A stretch of DNA of 64,000 nt from Planococcus donghaensis. GTDB lineage: Bacteria > Bacillota > Bacilli > Bacillales_A > Planococcaceae. Positions 4,685-62,203 of this stretch are shown here, piece after piece (the first letter of the stretch is position 1; each line of letters starts with the position of its first letter). The translations under genes were made by a program, and so were the position numbers. The notes below the pieces were generated by a model. The model did no database searches. It saw only the letters and a list, made by a program, of their open reading frames with translations, and was not told the origin of the DNA. The stretch spans positions 3,100,001 to 3,164,000 of the forward strand of contig NZ_CP016543.2 of assembly GCF_001687665.2 (NCBI RefSeq), written 5' to 3'.

Positions 4685-5137
4685 TTATTTGATAACAATT
4701 GCATCTTTTGTAGAATACTTAGTGTACTCTGGGTGGCCGGGTTCAGCATAAATAAAATAGTCGCCTTCAATTCTGCCTCGCCAAGTAATAATTAACGTTT
4801 TATTTCTACTTAGATTGGTAAATAAATCAAATGGATTAACTCCTAAAGATGGTTCAAATAACATTTCATAATAATCAATACAGACAATTTCAGAATCTAC
4901 CTTATTAATTAATTCATTTAAAATCTCTGCTACTTTATAAGGTCTTCTTTTCTGAGCTACGGTTTTGATTCTTTCGGATAACAACAAATTTATATTCATT
5001 AAGGGATAATGATTAGCCTGACTAAAATACTCTACGCTATTACCTCGCTCATATTCATATACATAAACTTGTTTATAATAAAGTTGAGAAATATTCTGCA
5101 GCTTAACGCTAAGATTGTTTAATACAGAAATATTCAA
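4685..5137 (-). CDS. brxF: BrxF-like BREX type 3 protein lacking a P-loop
   Basis: A 150-residue protein whose C-terminal half resembles BrxF of type 3 BREX. It has a predicted Walker B-like strand (IVCIDYYEMLFEPSLG, about residues 83-98), then LFTNLSRNKTLIITWRG, and ends with the AEPGHPEY block. BrxF is described as a small P-loop protein, but here the N-terminal position expected to hold GxxGxGKT reads QVYVYEYERGNSVEYF, with no Walker A. It may therefore be a structural rather than an ATP-hydrolysing subunit. The start is a TTG with a GGGGG site 10 nt upstream. It is the first BREX gene after the ribbon-helix-helix gene. The assignment rests on motif memory plus position next to brxC. Confidence 0.7.
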   Translation of the reverse strand: MNISVLNNLSVKLQNISQLYYKQVYVYEYERGNSVEYFSQANHYPLMNINLLLSERIKTVAQKRRPYKVAEILNELINKVDSEIVCIDYYEMLFEPSLGVNPFDLFTNLSRNKTLIITWRGRIEGDYFIYAEPGHPEYTKYSTKDAIVIK

Positions 5138-5178: not shown

Positions 5179-5394
5179 TTAAGCTTTTAGATGATTTCTT
5201 AAAGCTTCTTCCACTATTTCCAACATTGTCTTATCCTGTTCAACTGCAGCCGTTTTCAAACGTTTATGCAAATCTGCAGGCAACATAAAAGTTGCTTTTT
5301 TCGTTATTTTTTTTTGAGAGACTTCGTAAATTTTTTGATTAGAAAAATCATAGTCCCCGTCTAAATTGTTACTATCGTTATTTTTAGTTGGCAT
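5179..5394 (-). CDS. Ribbon-helix-helix DNA-binding protein heading the BREX operon
   Basis: A 71-residue protein with a disordered polar N-terminus (about 35 residues rich in N, D, K) and a C-terminal ribbon-helix-helix fold: strand KKATFMLPADLHKRL, then helix AAVEQDKTMLEIVEEALRNHL. Such Arc/CopG/ParG-type proteins bind DNA as dimers and commonly autoregulate their own operons. It lies 41 nt upstream of brxF on the same strand with a GGGGATG site before its ATG, so it is probably co-transcribed. I infer a BREX operon regulator. An orphan antitoxin or partition protein is the alternative; no toxin or ParA partner adjoins it. Confidence 0.7.
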   Translation of the reverse strand: MPTKNNDSNNLDGDYDFSNQKIYEVSQKKITKKATFMLPADLHKRLKTAAVEQDKTMLEIVEEALRNHLKA

Positions 5395-5582
5395 ATTTAA
5401 ACATCCCCTAAACGAATTAAATTATTAGATATTCATATCTGTCAAAAGAAACCTTTTTTGAATCTAAAGTACTTATAAAATTGTACCAAGAAACCTGATG
5501 GACATAAAGCTGTATTTACAGAAACACAGTTTCATACTTAATGAGGGAGAAACAAAATAATTTAATAAGTGGGCGTGAGGAC

Positions 5583-5629: not shown

Positions 5630-5974
5630 TCAAATTCTTGTTTGGCGATTTGAATGTGTTCTTTGAGCTTTTTTTATTTCTTTCTTTTTCTTCTTGTAAT
5701 TGTATTTAAAAGTATAATGAAGAACCAACATTAAGAAAATATATCCCAAAACTAGAGGAATCATTTGTTTCCAAAAACCAATTATTAATACTGATTCGGC
5801 ACCGTAAAAAGCTTGACGATCATATAAATATGCTAAATCGCTCACCAATGCTGCACCTAAAAGTAAGGAAACGAGCGTTAATAATATTTGTAGAACCACC
5901 CCAATCATATAAAGATTTCTTAAATGTCCTACACTTAAAAATCCATTTGCCATTAACCAATCTACTCCTATCAT
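5630..5974 (-). CDS. Small integral membrane protein of unknown function
   Basis: A 114-residue protein with two clear hydrophobic segments (about residues 21-47, MIGVVLQILLTLVSLLLGAA, and about 66-86, QMIPLVLGYIFLMLVLHYTF). A very basic cytoplasmic tail follows (KKKKKEIKKAQ). No family was recognised. The ATG at 5974 has only a weak purine-rich site; an internal ATG after GGAG is possible but would remove just a few residues. It sits alone between the BREX operon and a long non-coding stretch. Its monocistronic layout gives no functional hint. Confidence 0.55.
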   Translation of the reverse strand: MIGVDWLMANGFLSVGHLRNLYMIGVVLQILLTLVSLLLGAALVSDLAYLYDRQAFYGAESVLIIGFWKQMIPLVLGYIFLMLVLHYTFKYNYKKKKKEIKKAQRTHSNRQTRI

Positions 5975-55166: not shown

Positions 55167-55574
55167 TTACTTTACTAGTGAATTTTGCTCTATCGCGTTA
55201 AATACAGCAGATAATCTGGTAGCGAAATCTTCAGGTGATTCTTCTGAAGACATATAGATGCATACAATATTCGGGTTTATGTCCACACGTTGTTGATAGT
55301 TTATCGGCAACGGAATAGCCTGCTGGTGAAGCGTGTCTGTAAAAAGAGCTAGCTCTTCCGGGAGTAACAATATTCCTGCCTCATTAAGCGCAGTGCCATC
55401 TTCTTTAAGGTTTTTAAACGAAATATCATGATCGAGCACACAATTGAAATTTTTGTTTTGAGAAGAAATATTGATGGCCCTCGTTTTTTTGATTAGGCAT
55501 TCGCCATTTTGTACTTCTACTTCTGCATTCAGCAACACGCCAACTTGTTCGGCCAATCGCTCGAATCTATCCAC
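55167..55574 (-). CDS. DUF1259-like protein
   Basis: A 135-residue protein weakly resembling the second half of DUF1259 (LppY/LpqO) proteins: NFNCVLDHDISFK, ALNEAGILLLPEELALFTDTL, and PNIVCIYMSSEESPEDFATRLSAVFNAI near the end. The family's usual His-rich site (HNH-like) is replaced here by PLPINYQQRVD, so any metal function may be lost. AGGAGGG lies 8 nt before the GTG at 55574, which I use instead of the longer frame. It is probably co-transcribed with the ribT-like gene. Confidence 0.6.
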   Translation of the reverse strand: MDRFERLAEQVGVLLNAEVEVQNGECLIKKTRAINISSQNKNFNCVLDHDISFKNLKEDGTALNEAGILLLPEELALFTDTLHQQAIPLPINYQQRVDINPNIVCIYMSSEESPEDFATRLSAVFNAIEQNSLVK

Positions 55575-55639
55575 CCGGTTCACCCTCCTGTTTTCCCATA
55601 TCAATTTATATGGGATATTAAAATATTGTAGACACGAAA

Positions 55640-55674
55640 ACACCGAAAAGAATCCTTAGACTCTTTTCGGCGTT
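55640..55674. terminator. Hairpin upstream of the DUF1259-like gene
   Basis: ACACCGAAAAGA and TCTTTTCGGCGT pair around ATCCTTAGAC. No T run on either side is perfect. Confidence 0.55.
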
Positions 55675-55965: not shown

Positions 55966-56406
55966 CTATTTAAGGAGTGCTACTAATTTCTCACAGCGAA
56001 TCACGTCTTTTGGTTGAGGCATCAATTCCACTTTCAAGCTAGCTATCAGCAATGTTTTGACGTATAACATATCTCGAAAACGATCGACCGCTCCACAAAA
56101 TTCTGCAAAAAAACGATCTCCCGTTCCGAAAACTGCTGTTTGTAACTCTTTGTTACCAAGCTGTTCAATCGCTTGATACAATCCATACATTTCTTTTGGA
56201 ATTTCACCGCTTCCCCATGTATAAGTGCCAATCAACACTTGAGCAAAATAGGGCAGTTCATCAAGCAAAAATTCTTCTACTCGGTAAAGCTCAACTGGAA
56301 TCCCTTGATTTAGCAGGGCTGTTTGCAGCATTTCTGCCAAGTGTTCTGTATTCCCAGTAACTGAAGTATAAACGATTGCTGTTCTTGGCTTATAGCTCGT
56401 CAAAGC
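55966..56406 (-). CDS. Flavodoxin at the NrdI position of the ribonucleotide reductase operon
   Basis: A 146-residue flavodoxin. The FMN phosphate loop is YTSVTGNTEHLAEML (about residues 13-27), and the isoalloxazine loops are GTYTWGSGEIP (about 61-71) and VFGTGDRFFAEFCGAVDRF (about 91-109). This is closer to ordinary flavodoxins (YkuN/YkuP) than to NrdI. It may nevertheless supply the reduced flavin needed to activate or maintain the NrdF cofactor. It overlaps the 3' end of nrdF by 17 nt with the ATG at 56406. No good ribosome site is seen, so translation is probably coupled. Confidence 0.75.
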   Translation of the reverse strand, partial: ALTSYKPRTAIVYTSVTGNTEHLAEMLQTALLNQGIPVELYRVEEFLLDELPYFAQVLIGTYTWGSGEIPKEMYGLYQAIEQLGNKELQTAVFGTGDRFFAEFCGAVDRFRDMLYVKTLLIASLKVELMPQPKDVIRCEKLVALLK

Positions 56407-57436
56407 CATTTGACTGCGACACTTTTGTGTAGGTTCTAGACTTTTGTTCAAAAAAGTCAGATTTGGTATCGTTCATCATGTCATCGCCAAACACTTGAAT
56501 CCAAGGCATTGGATTGTTGCGTTCTTCATATAAATTGTCGAGACCAAGCTGACGCAATCGTTTGTTAGCTAAGTATTCCACGTAACCTTCAAACTCTACC
56601 AAATCCAACCCTTCAATATCAGCTAAGATATAGTGTGCCCACTCTTTTTCAAGCTGCACTGCTTTATCAATGGTCGTATAAATGTATTGAATGTTTTCGT
56701 CCGTATTCAAGTCCGGATTTTCCGTCAGCATGATGCGGATAAACTGTGCGATAAAATACGCATGCTGCATTTCATCGCGTTGAATATAGCTGATCATCGT
56801 GCTGGTTTTCAGCATTTTTTGCTGACGCGCCAAATGATAGAAAAACGCAAAGCCGGCATAAAAATAAATGCCTTCTAAATTAATCGAATTGACGCTTAGC
56901 TTAAACAAGTTTTGCGGCGTTGGATTTTGACGAAATTCTTCGTATGCATCCAAAATCAACTCATTGCGTTTTTGAACAACCGGATCGCTTTTTGCTTGAT
57001 TGAAGCGTGCGTTTTGTTCACTCACGGAAACAAGTGAACTTAAAATATACGAATACGACTCGGTATGAACGGCTTCTTGTTGAGAAATTACCGCAAATAT
57101 TGCTTTAAAGCTCGAATCGGTCACGTAGTCCATTGCTTGACTCATCGTTGGTGTTTGCAAACTGTCGAGTGATGCGAGTTGTGTATTGATACGTAAAAAG
57201 ACGTCTTTTTCCACACTGCTCAAGCTATCCCATTGCTTTATATCGTCTTGCATATTGATTTCTTGCGCTTTCCAAAAGTTTGCCAACAACGCTTGGTACA
57301 AATCGTACATTTGCGGATACGCAATGTCGTTCCAATTCAATAACCCCGAAGACTGACCGTTTAACACGCCAGTCGATTTATTTGGATGTTCTGGATTTAA
57401 TAATTTAATTTTTTTTAATGGTTCATGTATTGTCAT
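56390..57436 (-). CDS. nrdF: Ribonucleotide reductase class I small (beta) subunit
   Basis: A 348-residue di-metal subunit. All metal ligands are present: Asp in ASLDSLQ (about residue 88), Glu and His in QQEAVHTESY (about 118-127, radical Tyr at +4 from His), Glu in NLEGIYFYAG (about 189) and Glu-His in QRDEMQHAYF (about 222-226). The C-terminus (QSNGFDEL) should dock on the alpha subunit. AAGGAG before the ATG at 57436 sets the start. The gene is 12 nt after nrdE. The family match does not settle whether it is class Ia or Ib; metal is Mn or Fe. Confidence 0.9.
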   Translation of the reverse strand: MTIHEPLKKIKLLNPEHPNKSTGVLNGQSSGLLNWNDIAYPQMYDLYQALLANFWKAQEINMQDDIKQWDSLSSVEKDVFLRINTQLASLDSLQTPTMSQAMDYVTDSSFKAIFAVISQQEAVHTESYSYILSSLVSVSEQNARFNQAKSDPVVQKRNELILDAYEEFRQNPTPQNLFKLSVNSINLEGIYFYAGFAFFYHLARQQKMLKTSTMISYIQRDEMQHAYFIAQFIRIMLTENPDLNTDENIQYIYTTIDKAVQLEKEWAHYILADIEGLDLVEFEGYVEYLANKRLRQLGLDNLYEERNNPMPWIQVFGDDMMNDTKSDFFEQKSRTYTKVSQSNGFDEL

Positions 57437-57448
57437 GATCATTCTCCT

Positions 57449-59734
57449 TTAGCTTTGACATGCTTCGCATTCTTCGATCTCCGCTTGTGATGTACTGCGG
57501 ACATAATAAGTCGTTTTTAAGTTTTGCTTCCACGCTTCTAAATGCAAATCCAGTAATTCTTTTGCTTTAATCGTGTGCGGCACATAAAAGTTAAAGCTAA
57601 TCGATTGATCAATATGGCGTTGACGTGCTGCATTTTGACGAATGCTCCATTTTTGATCCAGTACGTGACGAGAACGACGGTAGAAATCATACGTATGGTG
57701 ATCCAAGTCAGGCGCAGTCACTTTAAATTTGAAGTTCTTTTTCTCTTCAGCGTATTCAACAGCATAGAGCGGATCGATGCCGTCTGTTGAACCACCGATT
57801 TTCGCAGTTGATGAGTTTGGCGCAACGGCCATCATCCAGCCATTTCGAACTCCTGTTGTTGCTACTTGCTGTTGCAAGTCGTTCCAACGCTCACTCGTGT
57901 AGTTGCGGCGTTCAAAATACTCGCCTGTGTGCCATTCTGATCCGGAAAATTGACTGAACGCCCCTTTTTCTTCCGCTAATTGCATAGAAGCACGAATCGT
58001 TTGATAAGCAATTTCTTCGTATAACTTATCGGCAAACTCAACTGCTTTTTCGCTTTCCCAATGAATGCCTTCAAGCGCAAGCAAGTGGTGCCATCCAAAT
58101 GTTCCTAAACCAATTGCGCGGTATTTTTTATTTGTTACTTCAGCTTGTCCAACCGAAATCGTATTTAAATCAATAACGTTATCGAGCATGCGCGTTTGAA
58201 TCGGCACTAAACGCTCTAATACGTCTGCTTTAATTGCTCTTGGCAAGTTGATTGATGACAAATTACACACCACAAAATCGCCTGGTTTGCGAATCATAAC
58301 AAGATTGCCGTCTTCATCAGTATATTCTTTAACAATGGTTGTAGCTGACATGTTTTGCATAATTTCTGTACACAAATTACTGCAATAAATCGATGTTAAC
58401 CCGCGACCTCTCGTGTGCTTGTTCGGATTTTGACGATTGACTTCGTCGCGATAAAACATGTACGGTGTGCCGGTTTCTAGTTGCGACACCATAATGCGCG
58501 CCATAATTTCCATTGCGCGGTACGTTTTGCGCGGCAATAATGGGTGATCAACTGCCTCTTGGTATTTATCGCTAAAGTATTTGGTGTCTTTTTCATCGTA
58601 AAAATCTTCGAGTCCTAATGCGTTGCCATTCGCATCTTTCCACCCCATCACTTGCTTGACTTGATGCGGACAGAACGTATGCCACTCCCCAATGCTGCGC
58701 CCATTTTCATCTTTTTCTTGCAAACGTTCCATAAACAAATCTGGAATTGATACGCCTGTAAAAATGTCGTGTGCTTTACGACGCTCATCGCCATTGTTTG
58801 TTTTCAAATCCAAAAAGCCGTTCATGATGTCTTTATGGAAAACATCTAAGTAAATCGCGACAGCACCTTGACGCTGACCAAGCTGATCGACACTGACCGC
58901 CGTATCGTTAAGCAAACGAATCCACGGCACGACGCCTGAAGAATTGCCTTTGAATTTTTTAATATCTGAGCCTAACGCGCGCACTTTGCCGTAATAAATG
59001 CCGATGCCGCCCCCGTCTTTACTAAGACGGGCGATATCCCAATTGTTTAAATAAATACCGTCTAAAGAATCGTCTACCGTATCGATAAAGCACGATGACA
59101 ACTGCCCAAAACTTTTACCAGCATTTGATAAAGTTGGTGTAGCAACCGTCATATACAAATGACTCATCGCCCAGTATGCTTCTTTTACTAGTTCTAAGCG
59201 CTGTTCTTTTGGTTCGTTTTGCATCAATGTCATGGCAATGACCAAAAAGCGCTCTTGTGGCAGTTCAAACAAACGCCCTTCGTAATCTTTGGCTAAATAA
59301 CGGTCTGCTAACAAAAACAAGCCAATGTAATTAAACAGTAAGTCTCGCTCCGCATCGATTTCTTGTCCAAGTTCTGTGATTTCTTCTTGTGTATAAGCAG
59401 ACAGTAATTCTGTCGAATAAATCCCAACTTGCGTTAGCTCTTGAATAAGTTTGTAAAAATCGCCGTATTTCTCAGAAGCGGAATACTCCCGATGTTCTGC
59501 AGCTTTTTTGTATAAATCACTTGCATACAATTCAGCAGCTACATAGGTCCAATCGGGCTGATCCATCGTAATATGGTTTAGCGCATACAATAACGATTGT
59601 TCGCCTTTTGCTTGTTCCGCTAGTTCTCCTGCTCGCTCAAGTAGCTCTCGTGTATCTAAACCGTATACTTCTGTTGCCCGTTCAAGCGCTTTTTCGACTG
59701 AGGATATTTCCGCCGTCTCAATTTTCATGTTCAT
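57449..59734 (-). CDS. nrdE: Ribonucleotide reductase class I large (alpha) subunit
   Basis: A 761-residue catalytic subunit that reduces ribonucleotides for DNA synthesis. Visible active-site parts are SSCFIDTVDD (redox Cys, about residue 215), CSNLCTEI (radical Cys with Asn and Glu, about 425), VVCNLSSINL (second redox Cys, about 450), and the radical-transfer tyrosines in TYYVRSTSQ near 745. The tail ends CEAC-QS, the re-reduction cysteine pair. The N-terminus lacks an obvious ATP-cone, so overall activity control by dATP may be absent. Its ATG begins one base after the thioesterase stop; its AAAGGAG site lies inside that gene. Confidence 0.9.
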   Translation of the reverse strand: MNMKIETAEISSVEKALERATEVYGLDTRELLERAGELAEQAKGEQSLLYALNHITMDQPDWTYVAAELYASDLYKKAAEHREYSASEKYGDFYKLIQELTQVGIYSTELLSAYTQEEITELGQEIDAERDLLFNYIGLFLLADRYLAKDYEGRLFELPQERFLVIAMTLMQNEPKEQRLELVKEAYWAMSHLYMTVATPTLSNAGKSFGQLSSCFIDTVDDSLDGIYLNNWDIARLSKDGGGIGIYYGKVRALGSDIKKFKGNSSGVVPWIRLLNDTAVSVDQLGQRQGAVAIYLDVFHKDIMNGFLDLKTNNGDERRKAHDIFTGVSIPDLFMERLQEKDENGRSIGEWHTFCPHQVKQVMGWKDANGNALGLEDFYDEKDTKYFSDKYQEAVDHPLLPRKTYRAMEIMARIMVSQLETGTPYMFYRDEVNRQNPNKHTRGRGLTSIYCSNLCTEIMQNMSATTIVKEYTDEDGNLVMIRKPGDFVVCNLSSINLPRAIKADVLERLVPIQTRMLDNVIDLNTISVGQAEVTNKKYRAIGLGTFGWHHLLALEGIHWESEKAVEFADKLYEEIAYQTIRASMQLAEEKGAFSQFSGSEWHTGEYFERRNYTSERWNDLQQQVATTGVRNGWMMAVAPNSSTAKIGGSTDGIDPLYAVEYAEEKKNFKFKVTAPDLDHHTYDFYRRSRHVLDQKWSIRQNAARQRHIDQSISFNFYVPHTIKAKELLDLHLEAWKQNLKTTYYVRSTSQAEIEECEACQS

Positions 59735-59735
59735 A

Positions 59736-60221
59736 TCAGCACAACTCCTTTGAGTATTCGTTTACTTGCATGCGTCGTTGTTTTCGTTCTTGTGCACTTT
59801 GGAATAACTTTTTCTCTGCGTCCGTTTCAGGGATTACGCCTTTAACAGGGATTGGTTTGCCGTCACTATCGACTGCAACCATTGTCAATATTGCGGTTGT
59901 TGTTAAATTGGTCACGCCCGTTTCAATTTGTTGGCATTCTGCTTTCACATAAACTTCCATCGATGTTCTTCCTGTCGAAATGACGACTCCTTCTAAAATA
60001 AAGATGTCTCCTACTTTGGCAGAAGATAAAAAGTTCACGGTATCGATTGAAGCGGTCACAACTGCTTCTCCACTGTGCCTCATTGCGGTAATCGCCGCGA
60101 TTTCATCTATGTATGCGAGTACCGTTCCTCCAAATATTGTGCCTAAATGATTGGTATCTGGTGGCAACACCAATTTTGTTTGAACTGTTCTAGCCACGCT
60201 TGCAGCTAATGCTTCTGTCAT
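59736..60221 (-). CDS. Hotdog-fold acyl-CoA thioesterase
   Basis: A 161-residue YciA/BFIT-type thioesterase. The hotdog helix motif reads NHLGTIFGGTVLAYIDEIAAITAMRH (about residues 21-46), with catalytic Asp in YIDE. ASIDTVNFLSSAKVGDIFIL follows. It hydrolyses acyl-CoA esters. GGAGG lies 10 nt before the ATG at 60221, which is used. Its stop abuts the nrdE start, so it is the first gene behind the cobalamin riboswitch. This link to nucleotide reduction is unusual. Confidence 0.87.
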   Translation of the reverse strand: MTEALAASVARTVQTKLVLPPDTNHLGTIFGGTVLAYIDEIAAITAMRHSGEAVVTASIDTVNFLSSAKVGDIFILEGVVISTGRTSMEVYVKAECQQIETGVTNLTTTAILTMVAVDSDGKPIPVKGVIPETDAEKKLFQSAQERKQRRMQVNEYSKELC

Positions 60222-60249
60222 ACCTTCCATTCCTCCATCTCTACAAAAC

Positions 60250-60283
60250 AAAAAACCCATCCTCTCAAGGAGAGGATGGGTTT
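60250..60283 (-). terminator. Intrinsic terminator between riboswitch and thioesterase-nrd operon
   Basis: Minus-strand AAACCCATCCTCTC-CTTG-AGAGGATGGGTTTTTT, 29 nt upstream of the thioesterase ATG. It is the likely expression platform of the riboswitch. Confidence 0.85.
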
Positions 60284-60378
60284 GAAAACGCAGAATAACA
60301 TACCAAGACAGCTGAACTTAACTGCTTGCGCATCATATCTTCGTTATCCCTCTCTACTCCCGGAGAAGATCATAAACT

Positions 60379-60542
60379 TGTAACGAAGACAGGTCTCCTG
60401 GCTCGTGCGTCATCCTTTGCTATCTCCTTCCCGTCCATTGGACAGTGGGTTGTGATAGCTCGTCAGCACTTACAGTTGCGGGTACAGCTCCGGAGTTTCA
60501 CCGGATTCCCTATTAAGCCTATTTAGGCACCTTCGTTATCGA
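60379..60542 (-). ncRNA. Cobalamin (B12) riboswitch
   Basis: Read on the minus strand the aptamer shows the conserved blocks in order: GGTGCC, then GGGAATCCGGTGAAACTCCG, GCTGTACCCGCAACTGTAA, CCCACTG and the B12 box AGCCAGGAGACCTG. P1 is closed by TAACGAAG (60531-60538) with CTTCGTTA (60382-60389). A second TAACGAAG lies downstream at 60340-60347 and can compete for the same CTTCGTTA strand, so the aptamer can refold when ligand is absent. With the terminator at 60250 this predicts repression of the thioesterase-nrdEF operon by B12. Confidence 0.92.
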
Positions 60543-60898
60543 TTTCTACTATATATAGTTTTTTTTTAGAATAAAACACTAAATATTGTACTTAATAAAC
60601 TATAAACCACTTTTCCACTTTAAACAAGGGGATGATTTTAATTAGCTGTTAACTATTGTTTTAAAGTTTATTTCACAGCATTTATAGTTTTTAACGGGTT
60701 AAATTTTACACGTATCGAAAACTTTTATTCCCTAATAAGTTTCCAAAATATCTGAATGATTCTTTTATTTACAGTTATATTTCAACCCATATTAGAACAA
60801 AGATGTGTGCTATGATAATAAATTGTGATTTTAGAATATTTTTTGATACTAATTTTGGAAATATAGTAACCAAGTGTTACAGCAATTGGAGATGCACT
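60543..60898. other. AT-rich promoter region between riboswitch and MFS gene
   Basis: No gene is visible. It must contain the leftward riboswitch promoter and the rightward MFS promoter; no unambiguous pair was chosen. Confidence 0.4.
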
Positions 60899-62203
60899 AT
60901 GAAACAATTAACAGGAAACGCTTTTCATTATGGCTGGGTCATTATCGCGATCGCTGCCTTGTCTCAATTTTTCTCTGGACCTGGACAAACATATTCTAAT
61001 TCGATTTTCATCGACTACTATATAGAGGAATTCGGTTGGAGCCGCTCGACGGTTTCGGGAATCTACTCAGCTGCGACATTAACTGCAGGGTTTATGTTAT
61101 TTTTTGTCGGCCGCCTAATTGACCGAAACGGTTCGCGAAAAATGGCTGTGACCGTTTCCATCGCCTTGGCAGTGGCTTGCTTTTTCAACAGTTTCGTTAC
61201 CAGTTTGGTTATGTTGTTTATCGGCTTCTTTTTTATACGGCTCCTTGGTCAAGGTTCTATGGCACTTATTTCAAGCTCACTTATCCCTCAATGGTTTGTT
61301 AAAAAGAGAGGGCGCGCTATTAGCATTGCCGCAATTGGTGGATTAGTCAGCTCGGCGGCTTTTCCTTTACTAAATGTCTGGCTAATTGAAGCATTTGGCT
61401 GGCGCAGTTCATGGCTGATTTTAGGTGCCATCATTGTTGTCTGCTTTACGCCTCTCGCTCTTTTTCTGATTCAAAATTCACCTGAAGAAATGGGCTTATT
61501 GCCCGATAATGGGGAAATCCTTAAAAACAAACTCCCCAAAAAAGAAGCGGTTGAAGTTAGTTGGGCAGTAAAGGAAGCTTCTAAAACCCGCGCTTTTTGG
61601 TTATTGTTGCTATGTGCCGCTATACCCGGAATCGTTAATACCGGATTAACCTTCCATTTGGTATCGATCTTCGCTGAAAAATCTTTATCGTTAGAAACAG
61701 CTGCTGGTATCTTAAGCTTAACAGCATTGATTGGCTTGCCGATTACTTTTATCACAGGTATCTTGTTGGAAAAAGTAAAAGTCCAGTACATGCTTGCAGT
61801 CGTTTTTGCAGGGGAACTTTTTTCTATATTGCTTCTTCAAAAAGTAGATGTTTTCGCTGGGGCCGTTATTTTCGGTTTAGTTTGGGGCATTAGTATGGGG
61901 ATTGAGCGGATTGTCATGGCTGTGGTATGGCCAAATTATTTTGGCAGAAAACATATCGGGAGTTTAAGTGGTATTGCAATGGCTATGGTTGTTACTGGTT
62001 CCGCACTCGGACCATTGCCGCTCGGCATTGCTTTTGACTTTTTTGGTGGATATGTAGAAATCTTGTGGATTTTAATGATTTTCCCGGCCTTTGGCATGCT
62101 TGCCGCTTTGCTAGCACACCCGCCTGTAAAACAGGATGAAGGCATCCAAAAACGGGTTGACCATACAAATCGACCTGCTAAAAACCCTTTACTCATGGAG
62201 TAA
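60899..62203 (+). CDS. MFS transporter, oxalate/formate-monocarboxylate type
   Basis: A 434-residue 12-helix permease. It begins MKQLTGNAFHYGWVIIAIAAL and shows the MFS loop 2-3 motif GRLIDRNGSRK (about residues 69-79) and its counterpart near residue 285. The N-terminal FHYGWVII..SQFFSGPGQTYSNSIFID resembles the OFA/monocarboxylate porter group. TTGGAGATGCACT before the ATG at 60899 sets the start and discards 32 residues of the longest frame. The substrate is unknown. It is transcribed divergently from the B12-riboswitch operon and carries no riboswitch itself. Confidence 0.85.
   Translation: MKQLTGNAFHYGWVIIAIAALSQFFSGPGQTYSNSIFIDYYIEEFGWSRSTVSGIYSAATLTAGFMLFFVGRLIDRNGSRKMAVTVSIALAVACFFNSFVTSLVMLFIGFFFIRLLGQGSMALISSSLIPQWFVKKRGRAISIAAIGGLVSSAAFPLLNVWLIEAFGWRSSWLILGAIIVVCFTPLALFLIQNSPEEMGLLPDNGEILKNKLPKKEAVEVSWAVKEASKTRAFWLLLLCAAIPGIVNTGLTFHLVSIFAEKSLSLETAAGILSLTALIGLPITFITGILLEKVKVQYMLAVVFAGELFSILLLQKVDVFAGAVIFGLVWGISMGIERIVMAVVWPNYFGRKHIGSLSGIAMAMVVTGSALGPLPLGIAFDFFGGYVEILWILMIFPAFGMLAALLAHPPVKQDEGIQKRVDHTNRPAKNPLLME

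Follow-up and report, generated by a model that had tools for sequence, protein, structure and literature searches.

A predicted cobalamin riboswitch and NrdR-box-like pair precede a thioesterase and class I ribonucleotide reductase operon in Planococcus donghaensis

Cobalamin riboswitches mostly control genes for uptake or synthesis of the cofactor, or B12-free isozymes. Streptomyces carries a B12 riboswitch on the class Ia genes nrdAB; its class I ribonucleotide reductase (RNR) is repressed by B12, a class II RNR exists, and NrdR acts too. We know of no thioesterase as the first gene of the Streptomyces operon. The locus described here resembles that system in having a class I RNR under a B12 riboswitch, a class II RNR and NrdR, but belongs to another phylum. 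Within the Bacillota, cobalamin riboswitches lie ahead of nrdEF and metE in Priestia megaterium (PMC8390425), which shares with our locus the placement of such a riboswitch before B12-independent RNR genes and has metE as a sister target. Because the available text of that paper states B12-riboswitch control of nrdEF, the RNR part of the present arrangement is not new; the same text, however, leaves an NrdR layer unmentioned, and the word thioesterase is absent from its main text.

The operon lies in a 64-kb stretch of DNA, hereafter the window, from a genome of 3.3 Mb. Its genes run in the order initially annotated, thioesterase, RNR alpha, RNR beta and flavodoxin, all on the minus strand. 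The thioesterase open reading frame covers 60260-59736, and its likeliest start is an ATG at 60221, ten bases past a GGAGG that suggests a gene at 59736..60221; searches were run with 60218-59736, one codon shorter than this predicted gene. One base separates its end from the start of the alpha gene (57449..59734), which has AAAGGAG upstream. The beta gene (56390..57442) and a flavodoxin (55966..56451; PF00258, 64.0 bits against a cut-off of 25) follow. The flavodoxin frame overlaps the 3′ end of the beta gene, and the true flavodoxin start is probably later than the start of the frame. Downstream of the flavodoxin, at 55167-55643 (-), lies a DUF1259 protein (PF07485, 27.1 bits against a cut-off of 25), relatives of which adjoin several Planococcus RNR operons.

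The RNR genes had been named nrdE and nrdF, but the curated models point to another subclass. Alpha exceeds NF006665 (1225.6 bits against a cut-off of 1057) and beta exceeds NF007184 (400.5 against 310), and the nearest solved structures are 7agj and 2rcc, respectively. We rejected a class Ib identity (nrdE, nrdF, nrdI): alpha reaches 358.8 of 750 bits with TIGR04170 and beta 161.1 of 355 with TIGR04171, both under half the cut-off, and the flavodoxin falls under both NrdI cut-offs (PF07972, 25.5 of 27; TIGR00333, 21.2 of 74.65). Judged by these models, the reductase is a class I, NrdA/NrdB-like enzyme. Among the matches listed, the nearest alpha is that of Planococcus halocryophilus (97%).

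Upstream of the thioesterase gene, Rfam identifies a cobalamin riboswitch aptamer (RF00174) at 60549-60371 (-), with 120.8 bits against a gathering threshold of 31.5 (E 9.2e-30) over positions 1-189 of the 189-position model. It is the sole gathering-level Rfam match in the window. The aptamer is thus complete, as had been claimed, and the match moves its boundary from 60542 to 60549. The intrinsic terminator proposed downstream is also present, as 14 pairs at 60283-60253 (-) followed by a T-rich tail, the one terminator-like site in 60180-60900 against 0.3 expected from shuffles; the picture of a cobalamin riboswitch and terminator ahead of a B12-independent RNR operon therefore holds. The same interval contains three promoter-like sites (2.5 expected), all upstream of the aptamer, and no promoter-like site that might uncouple the operon was found between the terminator and the thioesterase gene.

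A hairpin at 60335..60371 (-) follows the aptamer, and its 3′ side is the antiterminator strand predicted from folding and from partner swaps in 37 leaders. RNA running from 60375 to 60268, the end of the terminator's 5′ arm, is predicted to form a helix of -29.6 kcal/mol (-31.0 with the aptamer's last strand), in which the hairpin's 3′ side pairs with the terminator's 5′ arm, a stretch ending in CCCAUCCUCUCCU. When the leader is extended through the terminator, the hairpin and the terminator are preferred, at -49.1 kcal/mol (-51.7 with the aptamer's last strand). These alternative folds of the truncated and complete leader agree with the competing strand of the initial annotation. Across the 37 leaders, the mean duplex energy is -17.0 kcal/mol with a leader's own partner, -14.8 with a swapped one and -13.9 with a shuffled one, and the own pairing beats the swapped pairing in 28 of 37, moderate comparative support for the predicted antiterminator. 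A terminator-like hairpin is present in 37 of 37 leaders in our own scan, which was run without a shuffle control.

We propose that the leader would work as a cobalamin riboswitch acting by transcription attenuation, silencing a backup operon for B12 starvation when adenosylcobalamin is present; we infer both the ligand and the direction of switching, from ligand to termination, from the riboswitch family. With B12, the aptamer and the following hairpin would form, sequestering the antiterminator strand and letting the terminator form, and NrdJ would supply deoxyribonucleotides. Without B12, the antiterminator would pair with the terminator's 5′ arm, and transcription would read through into the thioesterase, alpha, beta and flavodoxin genes. 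NrdR, acting on the same promoter, would add repression at high dATP.

Such a scheme predicts a class II nrdJ elsewhere in the genome, and one is found. PF02867 detects two alpha genes in the window's genome, the operon alpha and an 852-aa protein at G000:C1:1476182-1478731 that matches NF005991 (vitamin B12-dependent RNR) with 1643.4 bits against 854. Other B12-dependent enzymes accompany it: methylmalonyl-CoA mutase and MeaB score over their cut-offs, MetH (982.8 of 1010.85 bits) and IcmF (981.5 of 1500 bits) fall below theirs with both frames cut by locus ends, and a CarH-like protein is under its cut-off. The genome therefore holds nrdJ together with further users of B12.

A cobalamin riboswitch precedes the alpha gene on its own strand in 67 of the best 80 of 470 relatives of alpha, in one of them (L067) weakly at 63 bits. 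Our model R1 was built from 11 sequences, the window and relatives among them, and these match it by construction; on part of the loci, Rfam was run independently of R1. The 13 loci that lack the riboswitch comprise 12 from Gracilibacillus, Amphibacillus, Natronobacillus and Paraliobacillus, plus Bacillus sp. OK048 (L038). At about 5870-5960 of L038, an NrdR-box-like sequence and the aptamer's first bases are kept, and a T/A run then replaces the aptamer; either the switch was lost naturally or the assembly is flawed here. We drew a 50-genome set from the 80, made up of the 13 loci without a match to the riboswitch on the strand of alpha, L067 with its weak match, and 36 others. nrdJ occurs in 37 of 37 riboswitch-bearing genomes (34 over the cut-off, three as pieces only) against 5 of 13 riboswitch-less ones, namely four Gracilibacillus genomes and Bacillus sp. 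OK048. As all but one of the 13 genomes without the riboswitch are closely related, this association counts few events; it fits the backup logic, and the five exceptions are real.

The nrdJ matches come in several pieces in, for example, the genomes of L019, L029, L034, L038, L043 and L067, some of which share a single long open frame (994-1347 aa) whereas others are separated by stops, a pattern expected of inteins or introns. Separately, eight loci have a second riboswitch, divergent from the first, between the RNR operon and a divergent gene (L019, at 5334-5515 and 5663-5840; L020; L023; L025; L030; L033; L035; and L038, with the divergent copy only). The divergent gene is metE in both loci tested (L019, L038), and metE stands in tandem in L055, so that in 3 of 3 loci tested, from Neobacillus and relatives, the neighbouring riboswitch gene encodes another B12-independent enzyme.

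The first gene of the operon encodes a hot-dog thioesterase with a 4HBT domain (PF03061, 68.3 against 20.6 bits). Its nearest solved structure is the acyl-CoA hydrolase 1vpm, over residues 8-150, and the motifs P.DTNH and [AS]Y[IV]D[EK], which we take to be catalytic, occur in 33 and 32 of 34 riboswitch-linked thioesterases, respectively. The best structural relative and the shared motifs liken it to the acyl-CoA hydrolases 1vpm and 3sps and to YciA/ACOT-type hot-dog thioesterases; as a YciA equivalog it misses the NF007970 cut-off, with 55.1 of 162 bits. A second copy, about 60% identical, is found in the window's genome and in 16 Planococcus genomes that have the operon gene, and no riboswitch was detected at the six loci of the second-copy type that were scanned (L109, L110, L118, L141, L152, L153).

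That a thioesterase leads the operon had been considered unexpected. The gene does come first, and relatives of it prove to be riboswitch targets also where RNR genes are missing. In six genomes a relative of the thioesterase follows a riboswitch and a terminator while the sequence fetched around it holds no RNR gene: Alkalihalobacillus bogoriensis (L107), Virgibacillus ndiopensis (L111), V. oceani (L112), G439 (L133), G168 (L137) and G159 (L229). Each of the six aptamers is confirmed by Rfam, with scores of 115.1-124.6 bits. The genomes of A. bogoriensis, V. ndiopensis and V. oceani have a separate riboswitch ahead of their RNR (L048, L054 and L042). In genome G159, NF005122 detects a different type of B12-dependent RNR (1264 of 859 bits), and the class I RNR has no riboswitch match within the 4.7 kb fetched, so in this genome the thioesterase is under the switch and the RNR, within the sequence seen, is not. 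No constant partner gene accompanies the stand-alone thioesterases, the downstream genes differing among L107, L111/L112, L133, L137 and L229. In A. bogoriensis, a frame that we presume to be ribokinase-like (L107, 2007-2927) overlaps the end of the thioesterase gene. Because relatives follow cobalamin riboswitches both with and without RNR genes, the thioesterase would be B12-controlled in its own right.

A survey of 398 genomes of the class yielded 146 with a thioesterase match at E 1e-40 or better, and we examined 110 places in 101 of these for a riboswitch (30 loci, including the window's own, and 80 further regions). A riboswitch lies upstream at 17 of the 110 places, in 14 cases with RNR alpha next and in three alone; the other 93 places have none. 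A tree of 134 proteins, reduced from 144 by dropping identical sequences and those under 120 aa, contains one 30-row clade (support 100/88) in which every row is riboswitch-linked, with L108, identical to the L072 operon, counted as linked. Three further branches also carry linked thioesterases, L111/L112 and L137 in the sister group of this clade and L229 on a long branch. The simplest reading of the tree is that the thioesterase was recruited to a riboswitch more than once, although for L111/L112 and L137 an ancestral linkage followed by losses may also account for the pattern. In the full-text literature, a body that leaves out most subscription papers, we found no published B12 link of this thioesterase family, and the available text of PMC8620254, PMC13194489, PMC2700814 and PMC4465626 contains no link between cobalamin riboswitches and thioesterases. 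As far as we searched, the thioesterase is undescribed as a recurrent cobalamin-riboswitch target.

MetE and class I RNR stand in for enzymes that need B12, and other users of adenosylcobalamin (AdoCbl) in the window's genome are methylmalonyl-CoA mutase and an IcmF-like protein. The thioesterase may hydrolyse acyl-CoAs that accumulate when AdoCbl-dependent acyl-CoA mutases are without cofactor, freeing CoA. We tentatively regard hydrolysis of acyl-CoAs piling up behind cofactor-starved mutases as its likeliest job, and the enzyme is a plausible drain for substrates of a stopped methylmalonyl-CoA mutase or IcmF-like protein. By extension, it may possibly join MetE and class I RNR as a third kind of backup that needs no B12, an overflow valve for acyl-CoA that cobalamin riboswitches recruited repeatedly in Bacilli. 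A PF01642 mutase is present in 36 of 37 riboswitch-bearing genomes of the 50-genome set against 1 of 13 riboswitch-less ones. Every genome with a linked thioesterase that we examined encodes an acyl-CoA mutase, namely all 24 of the 50-genome set and all 17 of the class set. Identical coordinates show that the two sets share five linked genomes (G274, G161, G372, G380, G398) and one unlinked genome (G139), which leaves 36 distinct linked genomes (24 + 17 - 5).

The same counts leave room for a second account, which we also hold as a possibility short of an even chance: when B12 is scarce, the thioesterase may serve some other need, for example the balance of membrane lipids or of CoA in general, unlinked to stalled mutases. 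The 4HBT thioesterase family hydrolyses many acyl-CoAs, and mutase presence fails to separate linked from unlinked genomes. In the class set, 116 of 129 other thioesterase-bearing genomes have a mutase as well (Fisher p 0.36 against the 17 of 17), including 78 of the 84 that were scanned for a riboswitch, and we rejected mutase presence as a discriminating test. Nor is the methylcitrate-pathway family PF03972 (PrpD/MmgE) clearly rarer where the thioesterase is linked: it passes the cut-off in 9 of 32 linked genomes, against 5 of 13 mutase-bearing genomes without linkage, and has no match in the window's genome. Against this broader role stands the mutase found in all linked genomes of both sets.

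It is unlikely that the thioesterase is a passenger caught between the leader and the RNR genes, with the switch serving the RNR alone. In favour of this, 46 of the 67 riboswitch-bearing relatives lack an intact thioesterase between riboswitch and alpha, and only remnants remain in L011, L018 and L028, from which we conclude that the gene was lost from those three operons and that the RNR operon does without it. An intact gene is found in that position in the other 21 loci, 16 from Planococcus and five from Bacillaceae. The passenger account is largely rejected by the six stand-alone riboswitch-thioesterase units, three of them in genomes with a separate RNR riboswitch, and the 30-row clade that is linked throughout also argues against it.

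It seems improbable that the thioesterase helps to take up, make or remodel corrinoids, as the other common group of cobalamin riboswitch targets does. The window's genome has two other cobalamin riboswitches, upstream of a BtuF-like gene and of an adenosyltransferase-like gene that is followed by a second gene for a binding protein, and these neighbours suit such a role, though both labels tested score below curated cut-offs. The stretches read around the stand-alone thioesterases hold no recognisable corrinoid gene, however, and the operon partner is RNR in all 21 intact cases among the 67. We know of no acyl-CoA ester step in corrinoid pathways, which we count against this role.

A second layer, predicted to act at the promoter and absent from the initial annotation, lies at the upstream edge of the aptamer. 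Two NrdR-box-like sites lie on the minus strand at 60576..60591 (the upstream site) and 60546..60561, each agreeing with 13 of 16 consensus positions and set 30 bases apart, and the second overlaps the first bases of the aptamer model. We scored pairs of 16-base boxes, 29-33 bases apart, near 39 aptamers, using what we take to be the NrdR consensus; shuffle controls preserved base composition only (mononucleotide). The window's pair (60546-60591, spacer 14 bases) scores 26, matched by 0 of 200 shuffles. Such pairs occur in 31 of 31 RNR-linked cobalamin leaders, where at most 1 of 200 shuffles does as well, and in none of the eight other cobalamin leaders (the six stand-alone thioesterase leaders and the two others in the window's genome), where 28 to 200 of 200 shuffles are as good. 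The promoter layer thus follows the RNR genes, and the RNA layer follows B12.

The best-scoring pair is displaced from its usual position in L007 and L039; in L007, the distance between the sites at 5135 and 5176 is 41 bases, and their 25-base spacer exceeds that of the other Planococcus leaders by one helix turn. NrdR-box-like sites (14 and 11 of 16 positions, 32 apart) also lie upstream of nrdJ in the window's genome (L005, 858-905). That genome encodes nrdR (TIGR00244, 227.2 against 124.65 bits), so that both paired boxes with a 14-base spacer and the gene for the repressor are found. NrdR proteins bind paired boxes with spacers of 14-17 and 24-27 bases, according to the available text of PMC12051234; the spacers here, 14-16 bases, are inside the first range, whereas riboswitches go unmentioned in that paper's main text. 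We predict NrdR binding at the paired sites. That the riboswitch is a relic and NrdR alone governs the operon is very improbable: 12 riboswitch-less RNR leaders do keep NrdR-box-like pairs (scores 24 to 28, without shuffles), so NrdR control can stand alone, but here the aptamer is complete at 120.8 bits, the terminator and alternative pairing are intact, and the arrangement is kept across relatives.

As read from sequence, the evidence comprises the aptamer, the terminator, the alternative pairing, the NrdR-box-like pair, nrdR, nrdJ, the mutases and the recurrent linkage of riboswitch and thioesterase. We consider it probable that an attenuating cobalamin riboswitch and an NrdR-controlled promoter act together on this backup operon and that the thioesterase is B12-controlled in its own right. 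The leader would then bring together, in little space, the sensing of nucleotides and of a cofactor for a single operon. The recurrent linkage suggests an unrecognised role for the thioesterase in coping with B12 shortage. If it is indeed an overflow valve, it would take over the draining of acyl-CoAs that is normally the work of adenosylcobalamin-dependent mutases, and B12 starvation would not lock up the CoA pool. A thioesterase found repeatedly behind cobalamin riboswitches, alone or with class I RNR, indicates that starvation for B12 carries a cost, perhaps because acyl-CoA mutases are blocked, and that bacteria may have an active means of relieving it. This question of physiology becomes testable, and an enzyme family known mainly by annotation gains a concrete condition under which to test it.
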